64,000 nt of DNA from Owenia fusiformis (taxonomy: Eukaryota; Annelida; Polychaeta; Sabellida; Oweniidae): the NCBI GenBank assembly GCA_903813345.2, contig CAIIXF020000003.1, positions 6,969,815-7,033,814 on the forward strand, in the 5' to 3' direction. Numbering within the stretch: the first letter of the stretch is position 1; every line of letters starts with the position of its first letter. Of this stretch, positions 13,901-63,473 are shown in pieces. A program made the translations under genes and the position numbers. The notes beneath the pieces are model-generated. The model ran no database searches. It had not been told where the DNA came from and saw only the letters and a list, made by a program, of their open reading frames with translations.

Positions 13901-15288
13901 ATTCATAAGTACATTGTTCTCCATGACATCATCATTTCATTTTGAAATTTCTGGTTTCCATGGTTTCAACAGAGGCTTTGGGAAGAAATGTCTGAGTTCA
14001 AAATGTCCCAATTTCTAAATAAAGGACCCATGGTCCTGTGCTCAGCTCACACAGTTTGGAACCTTCAGAGGAATGTATATCCTGACTTTCAAACAAAAAT
14101 ATTGATTTGGATTTGTAGTCTCGAACTTTGAGAAACTTAGATAGCACAATTGTGTGACCTAGTTTGATGACTTTTGACCTTGAAGATTTTACTTATTCAG
14201 AGCTCAGTAAGGTCTTCTGATTAAGCTGACCAAAATTTACATCCAAAAATCAATTTGAAAAATAAACTTTTGACCTTTCGAAGGTCATGTAAAGGTCAAA
14301 TCCTAAAACTAATGTCAGATTTGAACTCCTGGCAACTTGTAGATGATTTTCAAAAAAAGTTTGGTCAAATTGAAGCAAGTTGAAAAATAACTTATTTTTA
14401 CTGTTTTTTGACGTCAAATATCTCAAAAACGGTAAAAATTTGATGCTGACATATATTGAGCAATATGTAGGGAATGCTTCAATCTAGTACTGATGTAATT
14501 CATTGCAAGAAATGATCAAGTGTAAGGCAAACTGAGAAACTTGTCAATCACAAAACCTTCCTTTGACTTTATACATGAGAAAGTTTCCTGAACATGACTA
14601 CTTTTTGTCAAATTTTATAGAGTAAACACCAAAAACTAATTCCAAGAGCTTTTAAATCTTCAGAGGACATAAGTTGCATATACAGCAACTACTACAAGTT
14701 ATTTGAAAGTTCTACTTCAACAAAGTGTCTAGAATTTACAGAACATTTGACTTCTCTACGTCAAAATCAGCAATTTCTCGGAAACCGCGCAAACTTGGGA
14801 AATGGCAATCATAGGTCAAAAAGGCATTATGGATATGCATAAATGAATGTGGATATGACTCAATCCGAATAGCAGTTTTAATTTATATGGCTATTGTTGA
14901 TGGATGGACGGACGGACCAACGGCCGTACGGACGCCTGGTCGATCCCATAGGCCATTGTTAAATCCAAAAATAAGAGTATTAGAGTTTGGTATGAATTTA
15001 TTTTCTTATTTTCAAAGAACAGATGTTCTCAAAAAAGCTGAAAATAAAGTTATTTATGAATACTGATTATTCAAAAATCTCTCAATGTGAAGACTTTCTT
15101 TGTTCTAGTATTGTCATCTCCCATTGATTCAGTATTAAGAAATCATCTTTGATAGCACAATATCTCATACAACCGAGCTCCATCATTTTAATTTTCAAGA
15201 GTTCATTGCTTTTCCACACCAATCAAGCTGCTTTGAAGAATATTCTTTTACCTCAAGAAATTCCTGATTGTGCCTTGTCTTGAAAGCA
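10916..15288. other. gene-poor intergenic stretch
   Basis: Between the 3' ends of syntrophin (+) and MCAT (-). No exon with conserved coding content is visible. 11120-11330 is rich in ACCATATATGG-like half palindromes. Roughly 13860-14955 looks like an old dispersed repeat ending in GGACGGACGGAC (about 14905-14935), a signature shared with other repeats in this window. Confidence 0.5.
14282..14298 (+). promoter_or_regulatory. DR5-type nuclear-receptor motif, unproven
   Basis: AGGTCA-TGTAA-AGGTCA is a perfect direct repeat with 5-bp spacing, the form bound by RAR/RXR heterodimers. It lies inside the probable dispersed repeat and far from a promoter, so it may be accidental. Confidence 0.3.
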
Positions 15289-37318: not shown

Positions 37319-38650
37319 TTAGCCAAACATAAACAACTTAAAATAAGGAAATAAATATTGGAAAATTAATCGGTTTCCGCTTGATTTGTAATGTATATCG
37401 GCATCGTGTTTTATAACAGCAAAGCCACATGAAAATGATTTATCTACCACGTCATAAACCTTTTCCGCATTGCAACTATTTTGCTCACATATAATCGAAG
37501 TTTTATGAAAAAGGGAAATGTCTGTGTTGTCTGGAGTCAGTTGAGCAATTTTGAAATTGAACATTTCTTCACGTGACTTAGTCAAGTCTATTTTTTCAGA
37601 TCCAACGTCCTTGCTTGCAAGAACGATGTTGCGTCCGTTCAGCCTAAGAAATATGAATCCACCGCATACCTTCATACGATGTTTATCTGAACCGGTTATC
37701 GGGTTATATGTAATGACTAAAAAGTCTCGCCAGAAATACTTCTTTTTTAACATATCGAACAATCCATTACTAAAGTCTTCATTACTTTTTCCAGAATGTT
37801 CGCTTGCATATTCTTTTATTTCCACTTTGGACTGTTCCATGTATTTATTCTTCACCTCCTTATCAATATTATCAAAGTTCGATCGTATTTCTTGGATTCT
37901 GGTTTCCCAAACTTTCTTTTTTGCTTGATGGATTTCTTTGAAATTGTTCAATTGGTAATAGGCAAGTTCGATCCTCACTGCTCTCAATACTAGCCGCATA
38001 ACTCCCAGTAAAAAGTCAAGCGTATCCCTGCGGTCATTTTCTGTGTAACGCATAACGGCATGTCCCAGATCTTCCTGAAAGACGCCTTGTTCATTCAAGA
38101 TCGCTAGGTATAACGTTGTCGGCGTGAGATGAAAACCGTTTTCGTATGCCATCTTAAATACGTATGTCCTATTTGATGCTGGTGCCGACGTAATGTTATA
38201 AAGAAATACATATTCCTCATCCATTGACAGAATCTTTTGCTCGATTTCCGCAAAATTTATCGACACCTTAAGCCAGTCAATCTTTCTTTCAATTTCATCA
38301 AAACGTACATCTACTTTGTCGAATCGCTCGTTTATTTCTTTCATCATATTCTTCATAAATGCCAATTCATCCGAGTCTTCTGCTGGAAGGAAGTTTAGCA
38401 TCAGACTGAGAAACGGTTCGAGTGCACCCAAAAATGGGCCCAATGATGTAGCTACTTTGATTAAAGTTTCGTGAAATTTCTTTTCGTTTATTAACCCAAG
38501 AATTTCTTTTCCGCTTTGCAAACCCTTTTCAACCTGCGTTTTGTCATCTTCGGATATGCTTTCGATTGTCGGCACTAATGTCAAAAGTATCGCTGTTAGC
38601 AACCATATAGATAAAGGCACGCCTACAAAATGAGAGCAAAAATTTGACAC
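37319..38650 (-). CDS. intronless secreted protein, cephalotoxin/rapunzel-like
   Basis: A single 443-codon minus-strand frame. Residues 12-30 are strongly hydrophobic after a short polar start, like a signal peptide, so the product is probably secreted. A second hydrophobic stretch covers about 71-89 (GPFLGALEPFLSLMLNFLP). It is followed by a heptad-rich coiled coil at about 100-130 (EINERFDKVDVRFDEIERKI) and a mostly helical remainder. NIT and NRT give N-glycosylation sites near 152-163. The helix, short gap and FDxVDxRFDxIxRKIDW-type coiled coil recall cephalopod salivary cephalotoxin-like and fish rapunzel-like proteins. That is family resemblance from memory and does not show toxicity. 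A possible acceptor (TTTGTAG) near 38623 on this strand means the true first codons might be in an upstream exon. Confidence 0.55.
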   Translation of the reverse strand: MSNFCSHFVGVPLSIWLLTAILLTLVPTIESISEDDKTQVEKGLQSGKEILGLINEKKFHETLIKVATSLGPFLGALEPFLSLMLNFLPAEDSDELAFMKNMMKEINERFDKVDVRFDEIERKIDWLKVSINFAEIEQKILSMDEEYVFLYNITSAPASNRTYVFKMAYENGFHLTPTTLYLAILNEQGVFQEDLGHAVMRYTENDRRDTLDFLLGVMRLVLRAVRIELAYYQLNNFKEIHQAKKKVWETRIQEIRSNFDNIDKEVKNKYMEQSKVEIKEYASEHSGKSNEDFSNGLFDMLKKKYFWRDFLVITYNPITGSDKHRMKVCGGFIFLRLNGRNIVLASKDVGSEKIDLTKSREEMFNFKIAQLTPDNTDISLFHKTSIICEQNSCNAEKVYDVVDKSFSCGFAVIKHDADIHYKSSGNRLIFQYLFPYFKLFMFG

Positions 38651-41114: not shown

Positions 41115-41271
41115 AGTTTGACTTTTATACGGTTTACCATGGTTTCGCATGGCTTGGATGACGTCATAACTTCATTTCTTAGAATCTAAAAGTTATCACT
41201 AAAGCAACGTCATTCCACAATCATAGGATCCGACAACATTCGAAATCCGAATAAAGACAAGAAAATGTCTG
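41115..41271 (+). promoter_or_regulatory. promoter/first-exon cassette 1
   Basis: GTTTGACTTTTATAC (41115), then TTTCGCATGGCTTGGATGACGTCA with the perfect CRE TGACGTCA at 41159-41166. ATG-TCT-G at 41265-41271 follows and ends at GTAAGT in phase 1. The same order and spacing recur at 43834, 53661 and 55663. CRE sites bind CREB/ATF factors. The leader peptide would be only MS before the split codon. Confidence 0.6.
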
Positions 41272-43833: not shown

Positions 43834-44020
43834 AATATTTCCATATTGTGATTTGACTCTTATACTCACCACATTCATATGACTTTGTTATGACGTCAAA
43901 CTTTAACTTCTCTGAAAATGACGTGCTCATCACTATCGCAACTATATTAAATATTGTGTGATTGATCGCCCAAAGTAAAAATGGATAGAGACATGTCTAT
44001 TTTTGGACTTGGTATCACTG
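43834..44020 (+). promoter_or_regulatory. promoter/first-exon cassette 2
   Basis: AATATTTCC at 43834, ATTTGACTCTTATAC, CRE TGACGTCA at 43891-43898, then ATG at 43981. The first exon encodes MDRDMSIFGLGIT and ends at 44020 in phase 1 before GTGAGT. It is the longest of the five leaders. CRE-to-ATG distance is 90 bp. Confidence 0.6.
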
Positions 44021-46224: not shown

Positions 46225-46877
46225 ATAGTTCTGAAAGCGACGATGAGAGGCCGATGGAGGAGAGGTCCAGACCGGTTCATAGATTCCTTCGTGGAGGTGA
46301 GATACTGAAATCAAAACATGCTTTCAATACACAAATTAATTCAAACTCAGTAAATGCAATATTAGGCGCCAATAACAATGTATGTTTAATTTCCAGCTGA
46401 GTAAATTCAAGGAAGTTCACCATAATGTATCTAAAAAAATACCTGGTTGATTTGCGATTAACTTTTATTTGACTCAAAAATTCCTATCTCTCTGTTTTGC
46501 TTGGAAATGTGAATGTGGACATTATTTTCAAAAAATAGCAAAACTCACTCTTTCTGTCAGAATAATAATAGCATGGCATAAGACGAGAGACTGCTAAAAC
46601 TCGTAAAGCAATCCTTGGTAAAAAACATGTCAAAATTCCCCTTTATTTTATTTTTTAGTTTTATTTATTTACTATATAATTGTCCGACACTAATTTACAG
46701 GGTCGGCACTCTACTGCATATCAGTGCAAATATCAGAGTAGTCATTGAAAATACATTGCAATATGTTTATTTTTAACAACAAAAATCAACAATGAATCGC
46801 AATTTATGTCTTTACAGCGAAGACCATCGGGTTGCAACCAAGAACCCAAGCAGCCCTGCAAATATCCACCAGCAGAG
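46225..46877 (+). CDS. modular gene, exons A and B
   Basis: Exon A (46225-46296, 72 nt) encodes DSSESDDERPMEERSRP and then a VHRFLRG end. Its acidic Ser start suits casein kinase II. Exon B (46818-46877, 60 nt) encodes AKTIGLQPRTQAALQISTSR. Donors are GTGAGA and GTAAAG. Exon A and exon C are similar, including the intron end TTTTTCTTTATAGA. Confidence 0.7.
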
Positions 46878-49800
46878 GTAAAGTAAAATAGCATTTCTGT
46901 TTTCGTTGTTTTATCTTTTTGTTTGTTGCTAATAGAACTTATGGGTGCTAAGTATATTACAAAATCCCAATACTGTATCTAACTGGATATTTAAAAATAA
47001 GAGACGTTTGATTTTGAAAAAGTATGCCACAATTATTCAAATCAGGTCAATTAGGAAGAATTTTTATGTTTTCAATAATTTTTATTCAAAGATGTATTTC
47101 TGGTAAAGTGTGCAATGTGTCCAGGTTACTGAAACCTTGCTACTTTTATTACCCTGCGTGCAGAGTCTATAGTTATATTAGTTAAAGACGAAGCTCTCTT
47201 TTAAGAAGTGAAGTCAAACGAATGCAAAGGGTATTGTATTGTATTGTATTGTATTGTATTGTATTGTATTGTATCTTTTATTCCTCCACAAGGAAGAGCA
47301 AACATATAAAATTACATCATTTTAATATACCAAAATTATAACTTCAAAGGAAGATATTTACAAAAAACAGTGCTTGAGTTCATTGCCAATATCATGATTA
47401 TCGACATGTGATTTCTCATAGTGCAATTCTAGGTAAATACAAGGATCAGGATTTGATTACTTTAAAGTAACTGTCAAAATGCAAAAAAATGCAACTGAGG
47501 AGAACTTAATTCTCAAACTTAAACAGATTTTATAAGTTTATCAAATTCGAAGCCAGAGATGCCACAGTTAAGGAGGGGAGTGTATAGGGTGTCTCAAAAA
47601 ATGTACCCAAAAGTATTTCAACAGCATAGACACACCAATCAATATTTTCAGACATTTTTTGCATGGTCTTGTAGTCAAAACATGTACGTTTTTTCCCCTA
47701 TACACAGTTTTTAATTCAGCTTTGCCTTTTTGATACTTTAACCCTTTACCTTTTACGCCACATAATCAATGTAAACTCAAATTTCGATGACAGTCTGCAT
47801 CCTTTCTACTACATTGTTCATCACATTTGATTTCTGTTCGGATGCTGGTTTTAAGTTGTTAAAATAGTCTCTTAGCTAGGGTTTAGCATAAAAAAGCCCT
47901 AGAGAAAAAAAGTATAGGCCGTCAAATCTGGTGAATAGGGAGGCCCTCACAATGTCTAATAGCCCCCTTATACAGAGAGGTCAGACGTTCAAGAAACTGC
48001 ATTGGTTGGGATTCTAGTGAAGACTTTGATGTGTGTAGAGGGACTTAATCAATTTGAGACCAATGTGTTTTTATTTGGATATCATTTAGTCTCCAGACTA
48101 GCCTGCGTAACTCTGGAAGGTAACTCCTGAATCATTTGCCGATAATTGACCTGATTTTCTGTGTTTGTGCTGCCATCGTCATCCTCAAACATCTTTCTCT
48201 GTGGCTATTTGAAGGAGTGTTCTATGTAATGCTCATTCCAAGCAAAAAGACCTAAAACAACTTAATGGCAACATCCAAAGAGAAATCCAAAACATTCCAT
48301 TGGAATTATAATCAAATATGATGAACAATTAGCAGTAAGGATACAGGCTGTCATCAAAATATGAGGTTACATTGAATATGTGGTGTAAAAGGTTAAGGGT
48401 TAAAGCATCAAAAAGGCAAGACTGAAATAGAAATGGTGTATTGGGGAGAAATCTTTCATGTTTTGGCTACATGACCATGCAAAAAATGTCTGAAAATATT
48501 GATCGGTTTATCTGTGCTATTGATATACGTTTGGGTACATTTTTTGAGACACTCTGTATACTGGAATAAAACAATTTTGCAATATTGTTTTTCTTTATAG
48601 ACAGCTCATGTAGCGACGATGAGACTGAGAGGGCAGATGAGTCTCTCGCTGCATATATGCGCAGAGGTAAGATAATGAAAGCAAAAACGCCTTTATTAAC
48701 ACAATTGACTCTAATACTTGGGACCACAATAAAATGTTCCACTTGCGACGTATTCCACTTTCAGAGGTTCAATAACATGAATTCAATGGGCTGCAGGGGT
48801 TAAAAACATGTTCCACTTGTGAGGTGTTCCAGTTTCTACTGTAATTGTTATAGTATATCATTGCATGGATTTCTTACGTTTGTCTTCACAGCCCAGGAGC
48901 TAGAGCAGCTAGAGTTAGAGGCAACCGTGAACATTCGTGAAGAAGATCTACCGCAAAGAGGTAAGAAAAATATTGTTGCATTGTCGGAATGTTGTTTTGT
49001 ATTTTTGAATAATGAGTAAATTCTCTTTTCAAAATTATTTCCCATGTTTCCTCTAGAAACATCGACATTCGTTAGAACTGAAAAACGGAAGGGTCCTAAG
49101 TTATTATATTACCCCTAATTAACCTTATCAAAAGGATTATCTTGAAATAAAATCAGAACTGCTGGACCAATCGTCTACAATAAAGAAAAGGCATGCGGTG
49201 AAAAAACATGCTGTAAACTTATATTTTTCAAAACTTAGCTAGCATTCGCGAATTCAATTACCACCTGTCGGCCGACGGATTAACCCATTTCATCGCCAGC
49301 TCATTTAGATATGAATATTTAAATGAATTGGCCATAAAATAGCGAGTTAATCCATCAGCGGACAGCCGGTAATTGAATTCGAGATTGGGATCAAAAGTAA
49401 ATGCTTGTATATGCGTATTCAAAATTGGATTAAACAGGTTTGTTCTTTTCAGCAATAGACGGATATCATCCATCCAATCCGTTGAGAACAACGCACGCAC
49501 CACAACCGCCAGCTCGCTCACAATCACGCCCAAAAACTAGCTTCCCTAAGCAAAGACAAGTAGTACAAGGTAATAACATATCTAAGCCCAAAATAAGCCA
49601 ATTGGCCGAAATCTCATTTGCCCCATCTAGTCCCATTGAGCCCCATTGTGTCCCATTGGACCTTGTTAAGTTTACCCTGTTCAACTTGTGAGGTGTTCCA
49701 CTTACAGAGGTGTTCCACAAAAAAAGTTTCTACTGTGATTGTTTTAGTACAGCAATATATTAATTTCTTACCCTTGTCATAACAGCACAACAGCTAGAGA

Positions 49801-52800
49801 AGCTAGAGTTAGAGGCAACAGTGAACATTGGTGAAGAAGATCAACTGCAAAGAGGTAAGTAAAAATATCGTTGCATTGTCTGAATGTTGTTTTGAATAAT
49901 GAGTAAATTCTCTTTTCAAAATTCTTCCCCGTGGTTCCCAATAAAAACATGACATTCGTTAGAACTGAAAAACGGAAGTCCTCTTATTGCATATTTCCCT
50001 TATTAAAAAATCCGTTTAACGATTATCTTGAAATTAGATCAGATTGCTGGATCGATTAAAAAAGGCATGCCATGGAATGATGAACTATGCTAAGATCCAA
50101 GATCAACCGCCGGATGAGTTAACACACTGTTCATGCCCAACTCATTTACATATGAATAGTACCTGCTATAAAATAGTGAGTTAATCATTCAGCCGGCAGT
50201 TGAATTTGTATCAAGAAGTACATGTATATTCAGAATTGGATTAACCAGGTTAGTTCTTTTTAGCAACAGACGGATATCATCAATCTAATCTGCTGAGAAC
50301 AACGCGCGCACCACAACCGCCAGCTCGTTCACAATCACGCCCAAAAACTAGCTTCCCTAAGCAAAGACAAGTAGTACAAGGTAATAACATAACTAAGCCC
50401 AAAATAAGCCAGTTGGCCGAAATCTCACTTGCCCCATCTAGTCCCATTGAGCCCCATTGTGTCCCATTGGACCTTGTTAACTTTGCCCTGTTCAACTTGT
50501 GAGGTGTTCCATTTACAGAGGTGTTCCACAAAAAAAAGTTTCTACTGTGATTGTTTTAGTACAGCTCTATATTAATATCTTACCCTTGTCTTAACAGCAC
50601 AACGGCTAGAGCAGCTAGAGTTAGAGGCAACCGTGAACATTGGTGAAGAAGATCAACTGCAAAGAGGTAAGTAAAAATATCGTTGCATTGTCTGAATGTT
50701 GTTTTGAATAATGAGTAAATTCTCTTTTCAAAATTCTTTCCTATGGTTCCCCTCAAAACATTGACATTCTTTAGAAAAGAAAAAACGGAAGTCCTCTTAT
50801 TGCATATTTCCCTTATTAAAAATCTATTTAACGATTATCTTGAAATAAAATCAGATTGCTGGATCGATTAAAAAAAGGCATGCCATGGAATGTGGAAGGC
50901 AAGACTTGGCATTTTTCGAAACTTTGCTAAGATCCAAGAATTCAACCGGATGAGTTAACACACTGTTTCATGCCCAACTCATTTACATATGAATAGCACC
51001 TGCTATAAAATAGTGAGTTAATCCAACAGCCGGCAGTTGAATTTGTATCAAGAAGTACATGTGTATTCAAAATTGTATTAACCAGGTTTGTTCTTTTCAG
51101 CAATAGATGGAAATTACGCATCCAATCCGTTGAGAACAACGCACGCACCACAACCGCCAGCTCGCTCACAATCAAGGCCAAAATCTAGCTTCCCTAGGCA
51201 AAGACAAGAACAAATAGGAGGTAACATACACCTAAGCTCAAAATACACCAGTGAGACAAAATCCCACGTGCCCCATCAAGTTCCAATTGAGTCCCAAAGT
51301 AGTCAATCGAGTCGCACAATGCCCCATGGGAGCTCGTTTGCCCTATGGAGTCCATCGAGTCGCACAATGCCCCATGGGAGCTCGTTTGCCCTATGGAGTC
51401 CCATCAATTCCTAACATGCTCTATTGAGTCCCACGGAAATGATGTAATTATGATTTGATTTTGCCACCGCCATTTTGATTCCAATTCACCTGACACGTTA
51501 CTGTACATGATCAAAAGTCCTATGATGTCCTATGGAAAAAATGAATACGTTCATTCTTAATGGGGCTTCGTGGGACATTTCTCTTTTCATGCCCCATCTG
51601 GGGGGGGGGCTTCATGGGGCAAAGTCCAGCAGGATCCCATGGGGCAAAGCCCTATGAAGTCCCACAAAGTCCTACGAGGTCCCACTCAATGTTAAGTCTA
51701 TGGTGGCCCAACCGTGCCCCCTAGTTGTGTGTTTGACTAGTATATGAACTAATTAAGATTTGATTTATTATCATATGGTGCAAATATTGCCTGTTGAGTC
51801 AACAGGCAAGTGTTGACTACCAAACTTTCTTGAAATGGTATAATATATAAAAAAAATCAAAACAATGCAAAACGTGGATGAAGAGTAATTTCAGATAGCT
51901 TAGTACTTACCCCATTTCAAACGATTTTTGATGATAGCATCAGTCTGAACTCATTAATTCATAATCTTGACAAAAGCAAGATGCAGCGTCAAAATAAGTG
52001 AAATTGCGAAATTACATTTTAGTAAGAGTTAATTTTTGGCAACCTTAGCTCCCCCATTGGACTACATGTTACAGCTCCTTCTTAAGTTACATATAATCTG
52101 AAATGAATGTGGGTTATGTAACTCGACTTTATTTCCCAATTTTTGACAAATTTATTGAATTTTTGAAAAAATCGTCATTCCCATGTAAACTAATGGAAAC
52201 GATGAGTTTGAGGCAAATCAGATTTCAGGATTTTTATTCAGATGGTAAAAAATTCCCAATAAGTATTTTTATACAGAAAATTTAATTGTCTAGCTTTGTG
52301 TACTAGGTCAAGTGTTTATAGTTTACTTTGTGGACATCGAACTTACTGGGCTTTTAAATCATTTTTTTGAGAATCATTTTCGCCTCCTGTGTTATTTCGA
52401 TGGGATAGGTTTTTGAAAAATGATTTTGACTTTGTAGACGTAATTTTTTGGGAATCTGAAGAAACATAAAAATGATAAAACATTGAGAAAAATTGAAGGT
52501 AGTGGAAATGATGTCAATATTTCTAGCCCTAAAAGTAGGTTTTCTATACAGATTATTCATATGAAAATTCAAACATAATGAGGCTTTAACATGTACTTTA
52601 ATTTTTTTTTTTGGGGGGGGGTCGTTAGAGTTGCCTAACTTATGTACATGTAGGGAAGTGCGTAGCTATATAGCCATATAGGCATGCTAAAAAATTGAAA
52701 GTTCCTGAAATATGATCTCTAAAGTTGATGACTTTTTGGTATACCCCTATCATTATGTTCTAGGCACATTGAAATCAAGTATGGTATGATAGATAAAAAG

Positions 52801-55800
52801 CGATCTGTGAGATATTCGAGCGTACTTTTCACCGGACTTTTTTAAGTTCTCAAGAGTCCAGACACATCTGAAGACCTAGCACGATAGCCCAAATGTGTCC
52901 TCCTGGAGAAAAATCCTGTCTCTGGGGTCCCGTGTCTTCTTTCATATGTGACCTTTAGGATGACATATATGATTCTGTCATGGGATAAAGATGGCTGTAT
53001 CTTGAAAATATTTCATTTCAAATCATTTTTCCATTTATTTTTTTCAGAATAGAAATATGTTAAAGCAATTGCAATTACAATACAGTTGTATAAACATTTA
53101 CATTTTACAATACTGTTTTTTAAGAATTATACACATTTGGCATTTAAGGGGAAAATATCAATTTCAATTGTTAATTTAACTTTTAACTAACTCATTTAAC
53201 TAACTGCGACCTATGACCATTTTTTCTCACAAAAATACTCATTTTGTTAAGCTTGTTTGAAAATGGGGAACAAAACATTGTAAGTGCCCGAGACCATCAC
53301 ACCAATCAGGGTTATAATTAAGCTATGCATAAAAGTTGCTTGTACTGGGTTCCTACTCTTTAACATTAATTCAGCGCGGTGGAGCGGCCGGTATGTCGAC
53401 TTTAAGAAATTGTAAATGAACATGGAACGGGCTCACCCTACCTTTATTTCCACAATTAAAGCTGCGAATATCCAGAGCTGGAGAAAATGCATTGGGTTGG
53501 TAAGTACAATTTTACTTCGAAATTGTGCGGGACTATCGTATCGTGCTTGGGAGTTTAATGGAAAACTGACACTAGCGTTAACAAAAGAATTCCAAAAACA
53601 TATTGCATATGATTTTCCCCCTAATTGTTCTCTCTTTGATAAAGGTTTCATTTCGCCAAAATATTTCCATAGTGCGATTTGACTTTTACACTAACCTTGG
53701 TTTCGCATGGCTTGAACATGACGTCATAATTCAATATCTTTGAAATAGATCTCCATCACAACCAAACCAAATAAATATTTTCCACGGGATATTTTCACAA
53801 ATCTGCGAATATCCAGTACTGACGAAAATGCCTTGGGTTATTGGTAAGTACTAGTTTATTAGTTTACGGGGTATACTAGTTTTGCGGGGTTATCGTACCA
53901 TACATGTGACATCACTAGAAAATTATGAGGTCAGCGGAAAAACAAGCTCGAACTTTGACTATTTTACAGTCAATATGGTATAACGAAAATGGGACTTCTG
54001 CGCATGTTAAAATTTTTCGTCAAAACTCAACTTTTGTTCAAGTTGATACGATTGTCTTTCGAACTAGAGACTTACCTCATTCGAAAGATCATAAAAGACT
54101 TTATCTATACTGAAAATCTTAGATCCGAACATAGTAGAATACGCCGTCAGTCCGCATTTGATTTTTTGAAGTGAGTTTCGTAGATCGTCAGATTTCTCCG
54201 ACTGATACCGGGTTATCTCAAATTGGTTCGTTAATAAATACGAATTTCTTTACCGTTGTAAGGCGCATGCGCAAAATTGATTTATAAACGTTATTGGTTG
54301 ATGGTTTTTCTCCTGAGCATGCGTGAAGTCTGATAAACACTTATGACGAAGACCGGAGCAAACATTACTAGCTCTCCAACGAAATTCCAAGATTCAGATC
54401 ATTTCGCCGTGTTTGCGAAGTGTGTATACGTGAATGACAAGCTGTTTTGAGTAGATCGGGTACCTGTTTTCGACACAACATTGATTTAGCTTGACATTGA
54501 TGTGCACATTAACACTTTTGAGCATGTTAATACAAGTTTTTACACGCTTAGCACGAGACGGGTTTTCGAAAAATCTGTTATCTGATTCACTCGATTATCG
54601 TATGGATATGTATTTCTGCTGACATTTCAACACCACATCACATAGAATTACGATGCAGAATGATAATAAAACACAAAACAACTACTAAATGCCACTTGTT
54701 ATTTCACAGGAAGTAAAAATGCACACTGCCTAGATTCTTTGTAAGGGTCGTCAGACATCGGATTGGCCGCCATATTTGAAATGAAAATATCGCTAAATAG
54801 AGGTCTGCGCATGTCTCAACATTTCGACTGTTTAAGCCTGAACTCGATATTATCAGATCAATCCAGCCTTTGAAATAGGTTAGTCGTGTGAATTGCGGGT
54901 TGATTTAATTGTTTTTATGAGGCAATGTGATGCTAAACCGAGTGTTTAGGGTGTAGCCATATCAATTTTATATAAGCTTACCACTGTTTTTAAAAATGAG
55001 AAGTTGAATGATTCCCAAGCCATTTTCAGAGTTTTCAAATATAAGCCTATACTTCTTGAATCTCTCTCTTGAATCTCTATTTATCCCATGCTCTCTCTCT
55101 CCTCTCTGCTCTCTCTTATTTATCATCGTTTTTACCATGACTTACCTTTTCCAATTTTATCAATTGTTTATGTTCCATCCTAAACAGAAAAGAGGGGTAG
55201 TTAATAAATTTTTAAGTCACAAGCACGCTTTTTGTTGACGGTGTTCGGCGGTTGGTGTTCGATGGTCGGCATCTGTAACAGATTGCAGGTGGTGACATTC
55301 TGCATGTTAATGCCTTTTGTCATGTCATATTTGTCATATCGCCTTCCTCTAGATCAGTTATGGAACTTTACAAGGCCTAAAAATCCCATAATATATTTTT
55401 TCATTTCATGCAAACATGGCTTCCAAAATCATTTTTTACATCACGCCGATTTTTCCTCCCCAATAATTTCTTTCTCCTGAATGGAATTAAAGGTTTTCTT
55501 TCTAGAAACGAAAGTTTTCTTTATAGATCAGTTATGAATTAAATAGTCGACCGAGTGGACATTCGGAACGAGAGTTATCTCTGGTAGACCCCAGTCACCC
55601 ATGGTACTTTTAACTTTTAACCACTGCCTCGTCCCCTTGAAGACAGACGTTTAATTTCGGCTAATATTTCCACGTTGCAATTTGATTTTTATACTCTCTT
55701 GAGCATGACGTCACAGTTCAATATCATTAAATAGATTTCCATCACAACCAAACAAAATAAATATTTTCACAAAGCTGGAAATAATCAAAGCTCAAGAAAA

Positions 55801-58800
55801 TGCCTTGGACTGTAGGTAAGTACACGTTTACTTCGGAATAGTGCGTGATTATGGTAGCATACTTATGAGTTTATAAAATGCCGGGTCATGTGAGTTAAAA
55901 TAAGCGCTAAATTCATCATTATCACACTGTCGCTTGGAGTGATCTGGTGGAACGTCGGTTTGGCGGTCACGAATGTTGCGGGAAGTCATGTGACGCAAAT
56001 AAATAGCTAATCTTTCTTTTGGAACATTATTCTGTTATACAGACTCCCTACTTTCAGCGGCATTTGGGTTCCCAGCTGTGAGAAGGGCTTCTCATAGCTG
56101 GGGGCCAAAACGCTGCTAAAACGAGGGACTCTTTACAATAAAGCAATGCACCGACAGAAAAAAAACGGTGCAGTATGAGACTCGTAATCCTTGATTTTTT
56201 AAACATCTGGTAGGTCAAAAATTCAAATTAACGGTCGAAGTTGGTACCGCGTGCGTCTGAGAAATACCAATGTGAATGTTATGGCCATGGAAGGAATAAT
56301 AAAAACTAGTTCAACTAGAACTTGCCACCATAGAATATCCCGATTGTAAGAAAATCGGTCCCAGTCAAGAAACATCCATGGACAACTTTAAACTTCATGT
56401 TTTGCTAACGTTTTGCCTAAAAAAGACGATGCATAAAATGGTCAATAATAAAAAATAATTGTTAGCTTAATCCATGGGCTTCAATTATTAATTCTGGTTG
56501 AAAGTCCATGCTTATTCCAATTTTTTTTTCCAAATTATCTACTGATGTTGTTTGTCTCAGAAATATGAATGAATATGTACTATACTTTTACAGCTGATAT
56601 CATTTTAGGGCTAATAAATATGTCCAGTAGAAAATGGAAATACAAACTACCATATTTCGTTAATGGAGAATACATATTGAACCAGAACACATTTATTCCA
56701 AAAGTATCTTTCTTTTCCTTTACTGACAGATTTCCTCTTTTGGGAAGACTGTTAAACTTTCCCCTCTCTGCACTCATTCCCCTCTCCTTTCGTTCCTTTG
56801 TCAAAAGACGATGCATAAAAATGGCCATTTATAAAAAAAATTATTCCAAACTATTTTTTGCAGAAATATCTCTCAATGTTTTCCTCTCAGAAATGTGACA
56901 AAATTTGTTACTAAACAGCCGAGAACATTTGTAAGGCTAATAACTATATTGTATTGTATGTCTTATATTGTAACGTATTGTATTCTATACCACTTATATA
57001 AGAGAATTACAATTAATTGTACACAATAAATAGGAGTAAGAAATAGAAAAAATGCATCGCTTAATTGAAAGCCCATGGATACATGGAATGGATAATTACA
57101 CAGCTTTCAATGCAAGATCGTCATTTATATATTTTACAATCAAATTGATCACCCTTGGTATACGCAGCTAACGAAAATTGACCGGTACGGGTCAAAAGCT
57201 GGACCGGTACGGGTTAACGGTTTTATTTGAATTTAAAACAGCCATAACTTGCTCAATATTGACTTCCTCGTGTCTAATTTGAAATATATGATGCCTTCCG
57301 ATGCTTTTAAGTACCCCAATTTTTTGCAGATTTTTAAACGGACCAAAACTCTAAATGCGCATTTATGCTCTTTTCTCTCGAGAACGACTGTCTCATTTTC
57401 ACGATAACTTTTATTAAGTACTTCTAACATATAAAATCTATTTTTCCCTATCTAGGTATGATTTAAATGACATGCTATTTACATCTTGTGAGTTTCAATG
57501 ACGCGCGTTTGATTTTATAAAAAATGCCAAACTTTGTGACAAAGAATTTCATCAGCTATTGCCCCGAACCGGTCCGTCTTCTCGCTGCAAGCAGATTGCC
57601 CCGAACCGGTCCGTCTTCTCGCTGCAAGCAGGAGGAAATTCTTTGTCACAAAGTTTGGCATTTTTTATAAAATCAAACGCGCGTCATTGAAACTCACAAG
57701 ATGTAAATAGCATGTCATTTGCATCATACCTTGATGGGGAAAAATAGATCTTATATGTTAGAAGTACTAAATAAAAGTTATCGTGGAAATGAGACAGTCG
57801 TTCTCGAGAGAAAAGAGCATAAATGCGCATTTAGAGAGTTTTGGTCCGTTTAAAAATCTGTAAAAATATATACAAGCCAGTGTATTTAAAAAAGACGCTG
57901 CATTCTTTAAATGCATTTGCAGATTTTGTAATGATTCTGTCACTAATGCTTGCTAAAGGTTCATCTAAGTATTTACGCAAGGTTCGTTTAGTTACTTAAT
58001 CAGCGGAGCCTATTTAAACATCGCATAAATCAACATATCGATGGGAATATGGGGAATATATCTAAAGTGAACTTTCTTAGTAGTGTTTATAAAATAGTGT
58101 TTTCCGCGTTGTGACCTAAAAAGCAAACCTTTTGGATCTCTGGATCAGTAGTCATTAAGGTGTGATGAATCTAAAAGAAGAATTTTTAATTTATAACCTC
58201 AACGGAATTTAATGCAGACTGTAGATGATAAACTAACATGATAAAATGTACAAAATTAATTCTGAATTAACCTATTATTGATTTCTATCAACATGTTTAC
58301 TAAAAAAAACTTTCTTCTCTACAGAGAGCGACAGTGAAAACGAGGCTGTGCTCGAGCCATCTCCACCCAAACGGAAATCCGTTAGAAGGGGTAAGACATG
58401 CATGATCGATAAATTTAAAAAAGAACTATTCTTTTTAATTTCTACCGTTTGAAATAAAGCAATGATAAGTATTGTAGTTGACAAACTAACAAAATGAAAT
58501 GCATGACTGATACTAGATAGAGTAATTAATAATACAATTCTTTCAATTTAATAATGAGCGTGAAACAATAGAGACGTGTAAAAGACATCAAGATATTTCA
58601 AAGAGCATGAATTTAAGTATTGACTTTAGAAACCTGGAACCTTCTAGGACCCCCGTTTATGTTTGTAATTTCAAAATCGTATCAATATAAAAATTGAAAT
58701 CCTTTATTACCTCTACGTTAAGAACTCTGTATTTTTTCAGGTGTGGAGAGAGCCTCTGCTCGAAGGCGTGCAGCAGTAGCACTAGCTAATGTTCATTTGG

Positions 58801-61800
58801 GTAAGACCAACAAATAGACTTCACTTGACTCATTATGTTTGAAGTCTAATTTTCATATGATTGCACTTCGTAGTCATGCTTAGCTTGTTCCCATGGCTTG
58901 TTTAAAGAGGTAATTTGTTCGAATTAGAGAACTCTTTGTTCGAATAAGAGAACAGTTTCAATATAAATGTACTTGTTATTCTGCATTTTATCTCAGTTAA
59001 CTTGGTATTCTGGATTTACAGCTAGTGATAGTAGTGACGATGAAGTGCAACCGCATCCACCAACCGCTCAAAAGAAAAGAGATGCACGGCGAGGTAAATC
59101 AACATAAGCATATTCTTTGTAGATACATTCAAATTCTTGAGTTTATCTTTAAATGCACATAAGTCATCGCCAAAGGAAATATAATTCGTTCTCAGTGTTG
59201 CATATATTTTTGACCATATAGAATAAGAATAAACCAATACATATGTATATGATTCCACAAATGTCATGGTGGTGATCATTCTATTTAGACCACAAACACA
59301 TTCTTCAATATATTCCCATTCAAAAGGGTGTACAGTGGCTTTACTTGTACTTACATCTTTGAGTATCAACTAAATGTACACTCCCCTTCCTAAGTTTGGC
59401 AACTGGGAGCTCTCATTTGATAGCCAAGTGATCTAAAGGGAAATTTCCGGTTGTCAAACTAATGGAGAGGAGTGTACTTTCACAGAAGTTACATGAAAAA
59501 CCAAATGATACTTTGCAGGAAGCGCATCCAGAGTAAGCAGAAAGGGTGCTGATTCACAAGGTAAGAAATGCATGTAATTAAATGTTTTTTTAGATTTTAT
59601 GACTGTTTTAACATCTAGTTCACTCACAATCTTATGCACTACATGTAAGTGAGTCTAAGGTGTCCTATTTTAAGAGATATTGCAACCTACAATGACATCA
59701 TCATCTATAACCAATAATATATGATAGCTTCTCTCTTATTCTATTGGAAAGGTCTGTTGCTTTTTGTTCCAGAGGCCCCAGACAGGAGAAATGTTGTGCC
59801 TATACCACCTCCAATGAAGAAGAAGCCTGTTCAAACAGCTGGTAAGAAATCAAATGAAGCATTTACTATCCCAAAGAATTCAAGAGGGATATAGTGAAGT
59901 TGTCAATCCATTTATTTATCTGTCCGTCTGTCTTCATACTCGTTTCCCAGTTTGATTTTCAATCATGATATGAAAACATCATACCTTGGAAATCCAAGAT
60001 GTCTGTCTTGGCGATAACTTAAATTTCAATTGTCAATTGAAAATGGCAACTATTTTTCTAATATCCAATTTATGTTGTTTTTCAGAAGAGAGGGAGAAAG
60101 TCAAACAAGACTACCAGTTTGCCAAAGCAGAAAGAGGTAGCTTAAAAACCTTATGTATATATCTGATAATAAATTGATATGTCTGACCAAATATGAAAGA
60201 AATATATAATTCATTAAAATTATTAAAAACATGTAAGATGTTACCAGTTTAAGCACCAGCTGGCTTATTCGAAGAAGTGTTTTTGAAATAATTTCATAAA
60301 TAGATTATACACGTTTGTTTATTTTTTTATTTTGCTGTTTTACTTGCTTAAATTTGTTTTTTACTTACAGCATTTCAACTAAGAAAACTCAGGAATGCCG
60401 TCTTCAGTAAAGGTAAGAATAATACATACACTACAATAATTATATATCGTATACTATATTACAAAAAATGTTTTATAATTAGATTGGCTAAAAGGAATTT
60501 ACTTTCAATGCAAAATATGAATGTCAGAAACAATGATTATTGAAATAAATAGCAAATTCTTTTCAAAATATGTATGCTCTTAATTTAAAATTACTTATTA
60601 TGATTGCTAAACTTATATCACAGAGTTACACTGTGATTCAATGCTTATATTGATGTAATCGATTCACATCACCAGATTGATCATGGTGGTTTCAACCTTT
60701 TGTGCCTCTGCAGTATGATGTCCACTACTGCTCCAAGTAAAACTTCAAATATGTTTGTAAAATATCTGGGTTTGTTTTGCTTCTTTCTTCATTTGTTTGT
60801 TAGCTTTATGTTTGTTTGTTTGTTTGTTTGTTTTGCTGTTGGTTTGTTAGCAGGTAATGGTATAAAATATAGTGTACTCAACTTCAGTTATGTTCACAGT
60901 TAGATAGGGCTAGCCCAGCTTTGATGAGTTGGACTCTCCATTAAGTCAAGTGTTCACAAACATCAGTCTTAGAAAAATCGGTGATATTTAAAGCTATGGT
61001 TGGATTAATGTGCCTTGTATGCATTCCACAATAACATACACAAATATGGTCATTAGCACTCAAATGTATACAAGAACTTTTCTATAGTTTGTGTTAATTG
61101 ACCTTTGAATTAATAATACCTTTTTATGCTTTAAGAGAGGGAAAAAAGAAAGGCCAGTAGTGAAAGATCAGGTGAGTTTGCGTTATAAATTGTATTTATT
61201 AATTAAGGTAGTAATACACTGGCAAAATATGGTTCCATTTATTAACACAGGAGCAGTCATTTGACAAGTCTTCAACTTATGACCTTGAAAGTTTATGACA
61301 TCACACTTAGGGAAAATAAGTATTTTAGCTGACATAAATGTATCACCTTGATGTATTCAATTACCAGTATGTACTACTTGGTTATGTCATTTTAACTGTA
61401 TCCATTGTTGCACTTGTTTTTATAATTAAAGGGGCAACATGGCCTGTAGAGAGAAAATAGCAAAATTATCAATGCAACATTTGGCTTAACATCTTCTTTG
61501 ACATACCTAAGTATTTTCTTAAAATGTATGGATAAACTATCAATTTCAGCATTTAAGCTTCAAAAAGGGGAAATCCACTATTATATTTTTAAGATACACC
61601 ATGTTTTAAGAGGAATATCAGCTGAAATAATGTTCATCCAGCATGTCCAGGGGGTTTCTTTGTAGATAAGGAAAATATATGTTAGTCCTGATGAAATATC
61701 CAAACTTGAATATATTTTGACACTGGTCCATGATCGTTGAGTGGCTCCTTTGCACTAATTGTTGCACCTTTAAGAGGATGAAAAACTCACAAAGATGAAA

Positions 61801-63473
61801 AATGTCTCTGATGGGCAATGTGTATATGTACATTGCCATGCTTAGCATGAGTAAATAAAACTGTTTAAAATGCATTACATAATCTACATCTAGGACTAAA
61901 TATAATGTGATATGTTATTTACAGAGAATGACCGAAGGCCACTAACTCGTGCAAAACAAGACAAGCCTTTGTTGAGAGTGGCAGAAGAGGGTAAGAATGC
62001 TGTTTTTGAAAAACAAAGTACTAGTAGTAAGAGAGTTTCCAAATGATACTGTAAAACACATAGATTTAAAATTCTATTGTGTGAGCTATTGAAAAATTGT
62101 GAAAACATGAGAAGAGTATGCAAAAAACAAATGTAAAAATCTGTGAATATTGCTCAAAAGAATTCAATGTTTTACAGTAACCTTTTTGAATTACTAAAGT
62201 AAATGGATATACTCAATTGAAATTTTCTTAACTCTGCCCAAACCATTCTAAGTTCAACTGAATTTTAAAGAATCTTAAATGATTATCCCAAAAACTGTAA
62301 ATACAGAGTGTGGGTAAATTAAATTGATGTACTGTATAACAATGGTGAGATATTCAACTCAAGTGAGGACATACAGATGTACTATTGTATGTCCTCACTA
62401 AAGTTAAACATCACACCAATGTTATGCATTTTGGAACATCCTGTTTAACATGGGTGAGGTAACACATTTTATTTTTATTTTTTCAGAGAAGGCAATAACA
62501 AAGCCACCTGAATGCATGTTTCCGAAGATAAATGCAAGGACTGTGAAAATAGGTATAAATATAAAGAATTTGGCATTTGTATATACGAGAAAGATCATCT
62601 AAACCTTCTTGAATATGAGAAAGATCGTCATTCTTGAATATGGGAAAGATCATCATTCTTGAATGTGGGAAAGATCATCATTCTTGAATATGGGAAAGAT
62701 CATCATTCTTGAATGTGGGAAGCATCACCATTCTTGAATATGGGAAAGATCATCATTCTTGAATGTGGGAAAGATCATCATTCTTGAATATGGGAAAGAT
62801 CATCATTCTTGAATATGGGAAACATCATCATTCTTGAATATGGGAAAGATCATCATTCTTGAATATGGGAAAGATCATCATTCTTGAATGTGGGAAAGAT
62901 CATCATTCTTGAATATGGGAAAGATCGTCATTCTTGAATATGGGAAAGATCATCATTCTTGAATATGGGAAAGATCATCATTCTTGAATATGGGAAAGAT
63001 CATCATTCTTGAATATGGGAAAGATCATCATTCTTGAATATGGGAAAGATCATCATTCTTGAATATGGGAAACATCATCATTCTTGAATATGGGAAACAT
63101 CATCATTCTTGAATATGGGAAACATCACCATTCTCCATTGTATTGATTATTTGAAATAAATTTGCATAATGTATAAAAAGAACCTTCCTTGATGAGCTTT
63201 GATAATTCTTCTCCATGTTTTGACTCAATAAGAATGATCAAAGCCTCATTAACAATTAACAATCCCAGTTGAAGAGAAGTAGTTACATAATTGATATTTT
63301 ATCAGTACACCTGCTGATCTTGCTTGATGTGAATTTTTTATGTTATTTTTTAGCAATAGACGGGTATTATCCATCTAACCCGTTGAGAACATCACATGCA
63401 CCACAACCGCCAGCTCGCCCTCAAATACGGCCAAAGTCTAGCTTCCCTAGGCAAAGACAAGGACAGGCAAAAG
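46225..63473 (+). CDS. modular gene of short phase 1-1 exons, family unknown
   Basis: Twenty internal exons lie here: 46225-46296, 46818-46877, 48601-48666, 48892-48960, 49453-49569, 49786-49854, 50264-50380, 50598-50666, 51101-51220, 58325-58390, 58741-58800, 59022-59093, 59519-59560, 59773-59841, 60086-60136, 60371-60412, 61136-61171, 61925-61990, 62487-62552 and 63354-63473. Each is a multiple of three (36-120 nt), begins after AG, and ends in a lone G before GTAAG-type donors. Junction codons are therefore always GNN (Asp, Ala, Glu or Gly). Any exon can be skipped in frame. The peptides are charged and low-complexity, without signal peptide or known domain. Five candidate first exons (41271, 44020, 53499, 53843, 55815) also end in phase 1. 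It may be one gene with internal promoters or two tandem genes. The end lies outside the window. Confidence 0.7.
47149..47233. mobile_element. TACCCTGCGTGCAG element, 85-bp copy
   Basis: Third copy of the family at 22817. It shares GACGAAGCTCTCTTTTA and the AATGCAAAGGGTA end. A (TATTG)n microsatellite grows directly from its right end. Confidence 0.7.
47232..47275 (+). repeat. (TATTG)n microsatellite
   Basis: About eight GTATT units start at the terminal GGGTA of the preceding element. Confidence 0.95.
47584..48560 (-). mobile_element. degenerate Tc1/mariner-superfamily transposon
   Basis: The ends AGGGTGTCTCAAAAAATGTA and TACATTTTTTGAGACACTCT are inverted, and similarity continues about 115 bp inward at each side (to 47700 and from 48440). 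TA lies next to both ends. On the minus strand near 47900-47960 the interior reads PPYSPDLTAYTFFL, a stop, then GFL. This is the decayed SPDL...FFLWG motif of DDE transposases, so the copy is dead. It lies in the intron ending 40 bp before exon C. Confidence 0.75.
48601..48666 (+). CDS. modular gene, exon C
   Basis: 66 nt, phase 1-1, encoding DSSCSDDETERADESLAAYM and RR. The acidic Ser-rich start matches exon A, and exon L more weakly. Confidence 0.7.
48892..49569 (+). CDS. modular gene, two-exon unit copy 1 (exons D, E)
   Basis: Exon D (69 nt) encodes AQELEQLELEATVNI followed by REEDLPQR, short and probably helical. Exon E (117 nt) encodes AIDGYHPSNPLRTTHAPQPP and then a basic ARSQSRPKTSFPKQRQ segment. 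A foldback (49249-49381) lies in the intron between them. Confidence 0.75.
49249..49381. repeat. intronic foldback, copy 1
   Basis: CGAATTCAATTACC at 49249 is inverted at the end, and most of the 133 bp pairs (GGATTAACCCATTT against the GCGAGTTAATCC side). Shorter relatives lie at the same place in the next two unit copies. Confidence 0.75.
49786..50380 (+). CDS. modular gene, two-exon unit copy 2 (exons F, G)
   Basis: Exons of 69 and 117 nt, nearly identical to D and E. F has AQQLEKLELEATVNIGEED and G has ATDGYHQSNLLRTTRAPQPP. Introns are also similar, so this is a recent tandem duplication of about 811 bp. Confidence 0.75.
50102..50206. repeat. intronic foldback, copy 2
   Basis: ATCAACCGCCGGATGAGTTAAC pairs with GTTAATCATTCAGCCGGCAGTTGA. 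The 105-bp element resembles 49249-49381. Confidence 0.65.
50598..51220 (+). CDS. modular gene, two-exon unit copy 3 (exons H, I)
   Basis: H (69 nt) matches F except for two codons. I (120 nt) encodes AIDGNYASNPLRTTHAPQPP and ends in QRQEQIG, one codon longer than E and G. Exon T at 63354 is closest to this version in length and ending. Confidence 0.75.
50938..51043. repeat. intronic foldback, copy 3
   Basis: AATTCAACCGGATGAGTTAAC and GAGTTAATCCAACAGCCGGC...TTGAATT pair at the ends. Same position relative to the 3' exon of the unit as copies 1 and 2. Confidence 0.65.
51308..51404 (+). repeat. 48-bp direct duplication
   Basis: Two copies starting CGAGTCGCACAATGCCCC at 51308 and 51356, within a region rich in GCCCCAT and GTCCCA motifs that continues to about 51710. 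Confidence 0.9.
51411..53410. other. long intron or spacer between exon block 1 and the next first exons
   Basis: About 2 kb with no recognisable exon of the phase 1-1 type. It holds a poly-T/poly-G tract at 52598-52620 and AT-rich DNA. Confidence 0.45.
53420..53499 (+). promoter_or_regulatory. first-exon cassette 3, partial
   Basis: TATTTCCACAATTAAAGCTGCGAATATCCAGAGC resembles the 100 bp before first exon 4. ATG-CAT-TGG-GTT-G (53487-53499, MHWV) ends at GTAAGT in phase 1. There is no CRE upstream, so this may be a truncated or inactive copy. Confidence 0.45.
53661..53843 (+). promoter_or_regulatory. promoter/first-exon cassette 4
   Basis: ATATTTCC (53661), ATTTGACTTTTACAC, CRE TGACGTCA at 53719-53726, then ATG at 53828. 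The exon encodes MPWVI and ends at 53843 in phase 1 before GTAAGT. It is about 75% or more alike, by eye, to cassette 5 over the segment from the CRE to the ATG. Confidence 0.6.
54180..55600. other. no exon seen
   Basis: Spacer between cassettes 4 and 5. It contains a CT-rich tract at 55060-55120. No phase 1-1 exon or familiar element was found. Confidence 0.4.
55663..55815 (+). promoter_or_regulatory. promoter/first-exon cassette 5
   Basis: AATATTTCC (55663), ATTTGATTTTTATAC, CRE TGACGTCA at 55706-55713, then CATCACAACCAAAC as in cassette 4. ATG at 55800 gives MPWTV and ends at 55815 in phase 1 before GTAAGT. Confidence 0.6.
56025..56250. mobile_element. second copy of the 39595 foldback family
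   Basis: The centre GTGAGAAGG-GCTTCTCAT has arms AGCGGCATTTGGGTTCCCAG and CTGGGGGCCAAAACGCTGCT. The right flank shares GGTGCAGTATGAGACTC and AATTCAAATTAACGGTCG with 39880-39930. The left arm is shortened. Confidence 0.7.
57327..57860. repeat. long inverted repeat with duplicated 37-bp loop
   Basis: Arms 57327-57550 and 57635-57860 (about 225 bp each) are close inverted copies, for example CAGATTTTTAAACGGACC against GGTCCGTTTAAAAATCTG. The spacer holds two exact 37-bp direct repeats beginning ATTGCCCCGAACCGGTCCG (57558-57594 and 57595-57631). It lies between first exon 5 and exon J, so a transcript would fold into a long hairpin. Confidence 0.9.
58325..59093 (+). CDS. modular gene, exons J, K and L
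   Basis: J (58325-58390, 66 nt): ESDSENEAVLEPSPPKRKSV. K (58741-58800, 60 nt): GVERASARRRAAVALANVHL. L (59022-59093, 72 nt): ASDSSDDEVQPHPPTAQKKR. The 66-60-72 order mirrors C-B-A lengths, and J and L share the acidic Ser start with A and C. Confidence 0.7.
59519..60412 (+). CDS. modular gene, exons M to P
   Basis: M (59519-59560, 42 nt): GSASRVSRKGADSQ. N (59773-59841, 69 nt): EAPDRRNVVPIPPPMKKKPV. O (60086-60136, 51 nt): EEREKVKQDYQFAKAER. P (60371-60412, 42 nt): AFQLRKLRNAVFSK. All are phase 1-1 with GTAAGA or GTAGCT donors. N has a proline/lysine pattern loosely like PEVK exons. O and P are predicted helical. Confidence 0.68.
61136..62552 (+). CDS. modular gene, exons Q, R and S
   Basis: Q (61136-61171, 36 nt, the smallest): EREKRKASSERS. 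R (61925-61990, 66 nt): ENDRRPLTRAKQDKPLLRVA. S (62487-62552, 66 nt): EKAITKPPECMFPKINARTV. Phase 1-1 throughout. The Q acceptor (GCTTTAAG) is weak. Confidence 0.62.
62573..63136 (+). repeat. 25-bp tandem array in the last intron
   Basis: About 22 copies of ATCATCATTCTTGAATATGGGAAAG with few changes (ATATGGG/ATGTGGG, AAAGATC/AAACATC). Exon T follows 217 bp downstream. Confidence 0.95.
63354..63473 (+). CDS. modular gene, exon T
   Basis: 120 nt, phase 1-1, encoding AIDGYYPSNPLRTSHAPQPP and then ARPQIRPKSSFPRQRQ. It is clearly homologous to exons E, G and I 12-14 kb upstream and has the same GTAAC-type donor. No partner of the 69-nt D/F/H exon was found before it. Confidence 0.75.

Follow-up and report, generated by a model that had tools for sequence, protein, structure and literature searches.

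A candidate annelid gene combining frame-neutral short exons with duplicated first-exon cassettes

When a long run of short exons shares a single phase, has the gene been selected for combinatorial splicing, or could exon duplication alone have produced the pattern? The question is raised by a locus of the annelid Owenia fusiformis, which we analysed in a window of 64,000 nt (C3:6969815-7033814 in the 498-Mb assembly) and in the DNA continuing past its 3' end (L002). An original prediction, made from the letters of the window, had described twenty tiny exons at 46225-63473 as a gene selected for the combinatorial splicing of disordered segments. In our model this stretch is the middle of a gene that extends 5' to a set of first-exon cassettes and 3' beyond the window. 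Judged by its sequence, we consider it an even call that the locus is one protein-coding gene of ~24 kb, running from 41.3 kb to 1.2 kb past the window. In the model, 22 internal exons of uniform phase 1-1 lead to one stop exon, and there are four first-exon cassettes homologous to one another, with a partial fifth. Upstream lies a gene with an MCM lid domain, which we take to be MCM4, and downstream lie tandem repeat arrays.

Every one of the twenty exons of 36-120 nt inside 46225-63473 lies on the + strand, is a multiple of three, is open in phase 1-1, follows AG and has G as its last base before GT, just as had been described. Two more 1-1 exons and a terminal exon were found just beyond the window, giving 22/22 internal exons that are multiples of three in phase 1-1, one of 36 nt and the other 21 of 42-120 nt. 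The model requires an open phase 1, which all 22 have; phase 0 is also open in 8/22 of them and phase 2 in 3/22. The claim that each junction codon reads GNN stands for the original twenty exons but not for the exon at L002:29-145, which ends in A, so that 2 of the 341 order-preserving junctions depart from GNN and read K and I. That any order-preserving subset of exons would stay in frame was borne out: no stop codon is made at any of the 341 junctions, and none of 20,000 random order-preserving combinations loses the frame. The gene ends with an in-frame stop in the terminal exon, and the full chain with a first exon codes for 595-606 aa, depending on the first exon used (598 aa for the F4 version). 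This frame compatibility demonstrates a capacity for combinatorial splicing rather than its use. The exons are as follows.

46225..46296, + strand: exon 1, acidic head, DSSESDDERPMEERSRPVHRFLRG
46818..46877, + strand: exon 2, AKTIGLQPRTQAALQISTSR
48601..48666, + strand: exon 3, acidic head, DNA homologous to exon 1
48892..48960, + strand: exon 4, ELE family copy 1
49453..49569, + strand: exon 5, AID family copy 1 (PQPPAR)
49786..49854, + strand: exon 6, ELE family copy 2
50264..50380, + strand: exon 7, AID family copy 2
50598..50666, + strand: exon 8, ELE family copy 3
51101..51220, + strand: exon 9, AID family copy 3
58325..58390, + strand: exon 10, acidic head and PSPPKRK, ESDSENEAVLEPSPPKRKSVRR
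58741..58800, + strand: exon 11, GVERASARRRAAVALANVHL
59022..59093, + strand: exon 12, acidic head, ASDSSDDEVQPHPPTAQKKRDARR; weak acceptor
59519..59560, + strand: exon 13, GSASRVSRKGADSQ; weakest acceptor of the model
59773..59841, + strand: exon 14, EAPDRRNVVPIPPPMKKKPVQTA
60086..60136, + strand: exon 15, EEREKVKQDYQFAKAER
60371..60412, + strand: exon 16, AFQLRKLRNAVFSK
61136..61171, + strand: exon 17, 36 nt, EREKRKASSERS; weak acceptor
61925..61990, + strand: exon 18, ENDRRPLTRAKQDKPLLRVAEE; weak acceptor
62487..62552, + strand: exon 19, EKAITKPPECMFPKINARTVKI; weakest donor of the model, followed in the intron by a 25-nt minisatellite
63354..63473, + strand: exon 20, AID family copy 4, 12 kb from copy 3; weak acceptor
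L002:29-145 and L002:614-733: 21st and 22nd internal exons, both 1-1
L002:1148-1242: terminal exon, ending ...SSSDNSEE / ...SSLVYESSSDNSEE and then the stop

The minisatellite shortly 3' of exon 19 occupies 62606-63134, with ~21 copies of its unit. The 7.1-kb intron separating exons 9 and 10 holds, at 57370-57860, a direct repeat (gccccgaaccggtccgtcttctcgctgcaagcag twice) framed by a long inverted repeat, a structure that by eye resembles a foldback element.

Could such an array be a product of chance? Acceptor-donor pairs 24-150 nt apart in 46000-65300 were scored ignoring phase and frame, at four cuts from strict to loose; the splice weights were metazoan consensus values, not trained on this genome. 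The phase-blind scan recovered the pattern, with multiples of three making up 7/7, 11/14, 13/16 and 34/52 of the pairs; 7, 11, 11 and 19 of these were also open in 1-1, and 7, 10, 10 and 15 of all pairs coincided with model exons. A control region of 40 kb downstream gave 1, 5, 5 and 97 pairs (multiples of three 1, 5, 5 and 42; also open in 1-1 0, 2, 2 and 6), and one of 9.5 kb upstream gave 0, 0, 0 and 5, none open in 1-1. Of random 75-nt stretches downstream, 22% are open in a given frame. With pairs allowed up to 200 nt, the open 1-1 counts on the forward and reverse strands were 11/0, 11/4, 15/8 and 18/11. The strict cuts are convincing against chance; the loosest by itself is not. We reject a chance origin on the basis of the strict cuts, bearing in mind that open 1-1 pairs turn up on the reverse strand too once the cuts are loosened. 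Phase 1 is not found everywhere in this region: the last four introns of the MCM gene have phases 2, 0, 2 and 0 (by eye; a single frame runs through its last three exons).

The original prediction had missed both the 3' end of the gene and its duplicated first-exon cassettes, which add a second layer of possible isoforms. We searched 144 kb for ATG codons that had GACGTCA in the preceding 200 nt and, at most a few codons on, a G and a donor. This returned five places (41265, 43981, 53828, 55800 and 26905), of which the last was dropped for an in-frame stop inside it. In all four of the cassettes F1-F4, TGACGTCA lies 90-109 nt upstream of the first exon, although selecting on the octamer helped to find them. 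The first exons, including that of the partial cassette F3a, encode the start codon and 1-12 further residues only, and all end in phase 1.

41159..41271, + strand: cassette F1, TGACGTCA at 41159-41166, first exon 41265-41271 (ATGTCT|G, phase 1 end)
43891..44020, + strand: cassette F2, TGACGTCA at 43891-43898, first exon 43981-44020 (MDRDMSIFGLGIT, phase 1 end)
53487..53499, + strand: partial cassette F3a, first exon ATGCATTGGGTT|G, no TGACGTCA upstream
53719..53843, + strand: cassette F3, TGACGTCA at 53719-53726, first exon 53828-53843 (MPWVI, phase 1 end)
55706..55815, + strand: cassette F4, TGACGTCA at 55706-55713, first exon 55800-55815 (MPWTV, phase 1 end)

The 210-nt stretches upstream of F1-F4 are homologous, all six pairs scoring above all 500 shuffles. 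Against 1500 non-cassette stretches, five pairs exceeded every one in both directions, and the pair of F1 with F4 was reached by 0 and 2 of 1500. F3a stood above all of 1500 random stretches only with F3; the match with F4 was less clear (0 and 25 of 1500), and those with F1 and F2 did not exceed the random stretches. A genome search with an F3 probe, which scores only its best candidates and missed F2, found four places, all at this locus (F1, F3, F3a and F4), and a transposable element as the source of the cassettes is on these matches disfavoured. Duplicated first exons would be useless in a single constitutive chain and for that reason speak for isoform diversity more strongly than the phase pattern does.

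What would such a gene make? The peptides had been described as lacking any known domain, and this held: a Pfam scan of the 598-aa model gave no family at E 1, and NCBIfam gave one match at E 0.14, far below its cut-off. The predicted protein is of a disordered type, with 67% disorder-promoting residues and a mean hydropathy of 0.374 against a boundary of 0.427, on the disordered side of the charge-hydropathy plot; its highest 17-residue hydropathy is 0.45. Overall it contains P 11.3, E 8.9, V 5.1 and K 6.2%, with Gly at 2.5%, and outside the first exons there are two Cys and no Trp. When F1-F4 were joined to exon 1 or 10, with F3a and other joins untried, hydropathy gave no sign of a signal peptide (SignalP was not run); the highest 9-residue hydropathy was 1.69 with F2 and below 0 with F1, F3 and F4. 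An acidic head, S[DE][DN]E at residue 4-5, opens four exons and was reached in 0/20,000 within-exon shuffles, the motif having been chosen after the peptides were seen. PxxPx[KR] occurs nine times across all exons against 1.4 expected; counting one AID and one ELE copy, it occurs 5 times against 1.0 (P 0.003), as one of four patterns tried post hoc. The class I motif [RK]xxPxxP is absent from the exon peptides, and basic clusters in the predicted protein are not significant (P 0.19). Our best guess at its role is that of a multivalent ligand of the SH3 type, whose acidic heads may be phosphorylated.

How did the array come about? On the evidence of the alignments, part of the exon array and the first exons demonstrably grew by duplication. 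DNA similarity groups nine of the 22 exons into families: AID with four copies, ELE with three, and the acidic exons 1 and 3 (score 52; highest of 600 shuffles 31). The other 13 have no DNA partner among the exons above the highest of 600 shuffled scores. Three ELE-AID pairs stand in tandem, with stretches of exon and intron of 254 and 300 nt that are 93% alike (copies 2/3 or 1/2), and AID copies 1 and 2 have 7 differences in 114 nt. AID copy 4 has 21, 26 and 22 differences in 114-117 nt from copies 1-3 (exon identity ~77-82%; dN 0.13-0.21, dS 0.43-0.57), and its 100-nt flanks align with theirs at 54-57 of 86-92, the random level (random 100-nt pairs: median 0.60, 95% 0.69). The exon of copy 4 thus appears to have been kept and its intron not. 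A search for paralogues with the protein against its own genome gave 20 matches, all at this locus, and no paper on the gene was among those that the literature searches listed, the one listed for annelid micro-exon genes being on a tapeworm; the gene looks like an orphan, perhaps unannotated. Since duplication tolerates symmetric exons only, a uniform phase can arise without selection on splicing. What had been proposed, a gene selected for combinatorial splicing, is therefore sustained in being modular, frame-compatible and disorder-type, but not in the selection itself, since duplication alone could give the phase.

The broadest reading of these features is a two-layer isoform generator, in which at least four homologous promoters bearing a CRE feed 22 frame-neutral exons, each a stand-alone short motif. 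A single lineage-specific gene would then yield a large set of intracellular disordered proteins that vary in how many acidic, Pro-Arg or basic modules they carry and in what combination. Annelids would thereby have arrived independently at the micro-exon gene (MEG) principle and joined it to tandem alternative promoters. We put this forward tentatively, as a possibility that leans towards the unlikely. In the single-gene reading that we hold at even odds, transcription would begin at one cassette, under CREB/ATF-type factors at TGACGTCA. Transcripts from F1 or F2 would be able to use every exon; F3a, F3 and F4 sit within the exon 9-10 intron, so transcripts from there would be limited to exons 10 onward. 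Splicing would join a subset of modules, each supplying one short disordered motif, be it an acidic Ser-Asp/Glu head, a Pro-Arg ligand (the AID and other PxxPx[K/R] exons), an acidic ELE strip or a basic tail. This would give a soluble multivalent adaptor, with promoter choice and exon inclusion setting its number of motifs.

Several observations weigh against this single-gene reading. Six model acceptors are weak, with scores from -1.7 to 1.6. Nine copies of the octamer TGACGTCA are present in 144 kb, where 1.5 would be expected; five lie outside the cassettes (at 14409, 22857 and 24545 in the window and, with the numbering carried on into L005 and L008, at 102389 and 130044), and the octamer is perhaps a common promoter element in this genome; the argument for promoter activity and CREB use is the motif itself. 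Sites of the CK2 type show no enrichment: there are 9, and composition would give 9.6. Between the younger copies there is little purifying selection (AID 1 versus 3, dN 0.14 and dS 0.12; ELE 1 versus 3, dN 0.10 and dS 0.07). A protein library with at least four Owenia entries, one of them from this contig, was searched with the 345- and 606-aa versions, which cover proteins of ~190-604 and 333-1060 aa. Within ~190-1060 aa there was no match, shorter proteins not being searched: none of 3997 candidates reached E 0.01, and none of the best 7993 by shared words reached E 1. As the account of the O. fusiformis annotation in PMC9977687 has it, that annotation was built on a 505.8-Mb assembly, perhaps another than ours, with RNA from development and from nine adult samples, ovary and testes among them; it holds 26,966 genes, and 5,779 models overlapping repeats were discarded. 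With no match despite an RNA-supported annotation, it may be that long isoforms lack annotation, are rare, were filtered out or do not exist. The gene was dropped from the annotation, never assembled, is not in the library, or has forms under 190 aa only, which would favour heavy exon skipping.

Alternatively, the exons might always be joined in one order to give one long disordered protein, with the uniform phase a fossil of duplication from a few 1-1 founders, as in titin PEVK or elastin genes. Such a constitutive chain is quite possible, if short of an even chance. The AID, ELE and acidic families are demonstrably duplicated, only symmetric exons would have been tolerated, and most splice sites are strong, with 16 of the 22 model acceptors scoring 2.0 or more. 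For the 13 exons without a DNA partner, however, founding by duplication is not demonstrated; the mid-gene cassettes, if they work, imply at least two transcript classes; and no long protein was found in the library over the range covered. A further possibility is two overlapping or once separate genes, block A (46-51 kb, from F1/F2) and block B (58-65 kb, from F3/F4), born by segmental duplication of promoter, acidic, 60-nt, acidic and AID exons. We think this unlikely. Both blocks do open after cassettes with acidic, 60-nt and acidic exons (72-60-66 versus 66-60-72 nt), both contain AID exons, and the 7.1-kb intron with F3a, F3 and F4 lies between them. Yet none of the 13 candidates in 51.2-58.3 kb (acceptor score above 1, at least 12 codons) makes a convincing terminal exon for block A, the best scoring 4.8, against 5.6 for the real terminal exon, with a 20-residue peptide unlike the rest; phase 1 is kept at the borders across the gap; and between the blocks the acidic exons resemble each other as peptides but not as DNA. 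That the locus holds no working gene, being a set of chance splice-like intervals or a decayed remnant, is very improbable. The empty library search over 190-1060 aa, a dN near dS between the youngest copies and the reverse-strand pairs at loose cuts are what one would expect of it, but it sits badly with 22/22 exons open in one frame, the in-frame end, the strict phase-blind pairs and the homologous first-exon cassettes.

If the isoforms exist, the locus would represent an independent origin of the MEG principle outside flatworms, coupled to tandem alternative promoters, and would show how such a gene can escape RNA-supported annotation. Even if splicing is constitutive, it offers a clean case for separating uniform exon phase due to selection on splicing from that due to duplication alone. 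As an orphan gene that is still growing, as the youngest AID copies indicate, it would let the building of a symmetric-exon array be watched.

The neighbouring sequence contains further features. At 37322-38650 on the - strand is an apparently intronless open reading frame (ORF) of 443 aa of the cephalotoxin-like family, 100% identical over 98% of the query to an O. fusiformis protein. PF27742 is listed for its database relatives, a Pfam scan of the ORF itself being without match, and further relatives are three from Owenia and two from Mytilus. Two facing copies resembling by eye an AIG1/GIMAP-type GTPase gene lie at L003:2249-3050 (-) and L003:5336-6150 (+). Several long tandem arrays, one with the unit gcagttaggcgggtgtcagatatagtccacctgtagctgc, were noted by eye 3' of the stop exon at L002:3960-9900. 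No known RNA family reached its gathering score in 36000-64000.

How does the locus compare with known systems? The parallels originally drawn, to schistosome MEGs and titin PEVK, hold for architecture only, as was claimed. The description of MEGs in PMC4350168 gives them a coding region of mostly small symmetric exons that permits in-frame skipping, as do the 22/22 symmetric internal exons here, but also a signal peptide and an apparent restriction to platyhelminths. Here the host is an annelid, no signal peptide is seen, exons are mostly 42-120 nt with one of 22 at 36 nt, and there are several first exons. MEG exons are smaller, the threshold for a micro-exon being 36 nt or less. Titin PEVK shares the long run of short Pro-rich and charged exons and growth by exon and segment duplication, and the exon finder described in PMC6469411 asks for a PEVK ratio of 0.54 per exon. 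In our protein P+E+V+K come to ~31% overall, and the 598-aa model contains no titin domains. The PEVK region of titin is flanked by Ig/FN3 domains. Tandem 5' cassettes are found in the shortened Dscam genes of Chelicerata and in clustered protocadherins, the latter with alternative promoters (PMC4835542). The present locus has homologous first-exon cassettes with putative promoters, but these encode little beyond the start, and diversity could lie mainly in the internal exons. In Dscam and protocadherins the cassettes encode extracellular domains. The tropoelastin gene has exons of phase 1-1 throughout and a disordered, repetitive product; here Gly and Val are low and no signal peptide is seen. 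The gene would work like a MEG with a tandem-promoter 5' end, but stands outside the MEG family because of its larger exons, the lack of a visible signal peptide and a host that is not a flatworm.

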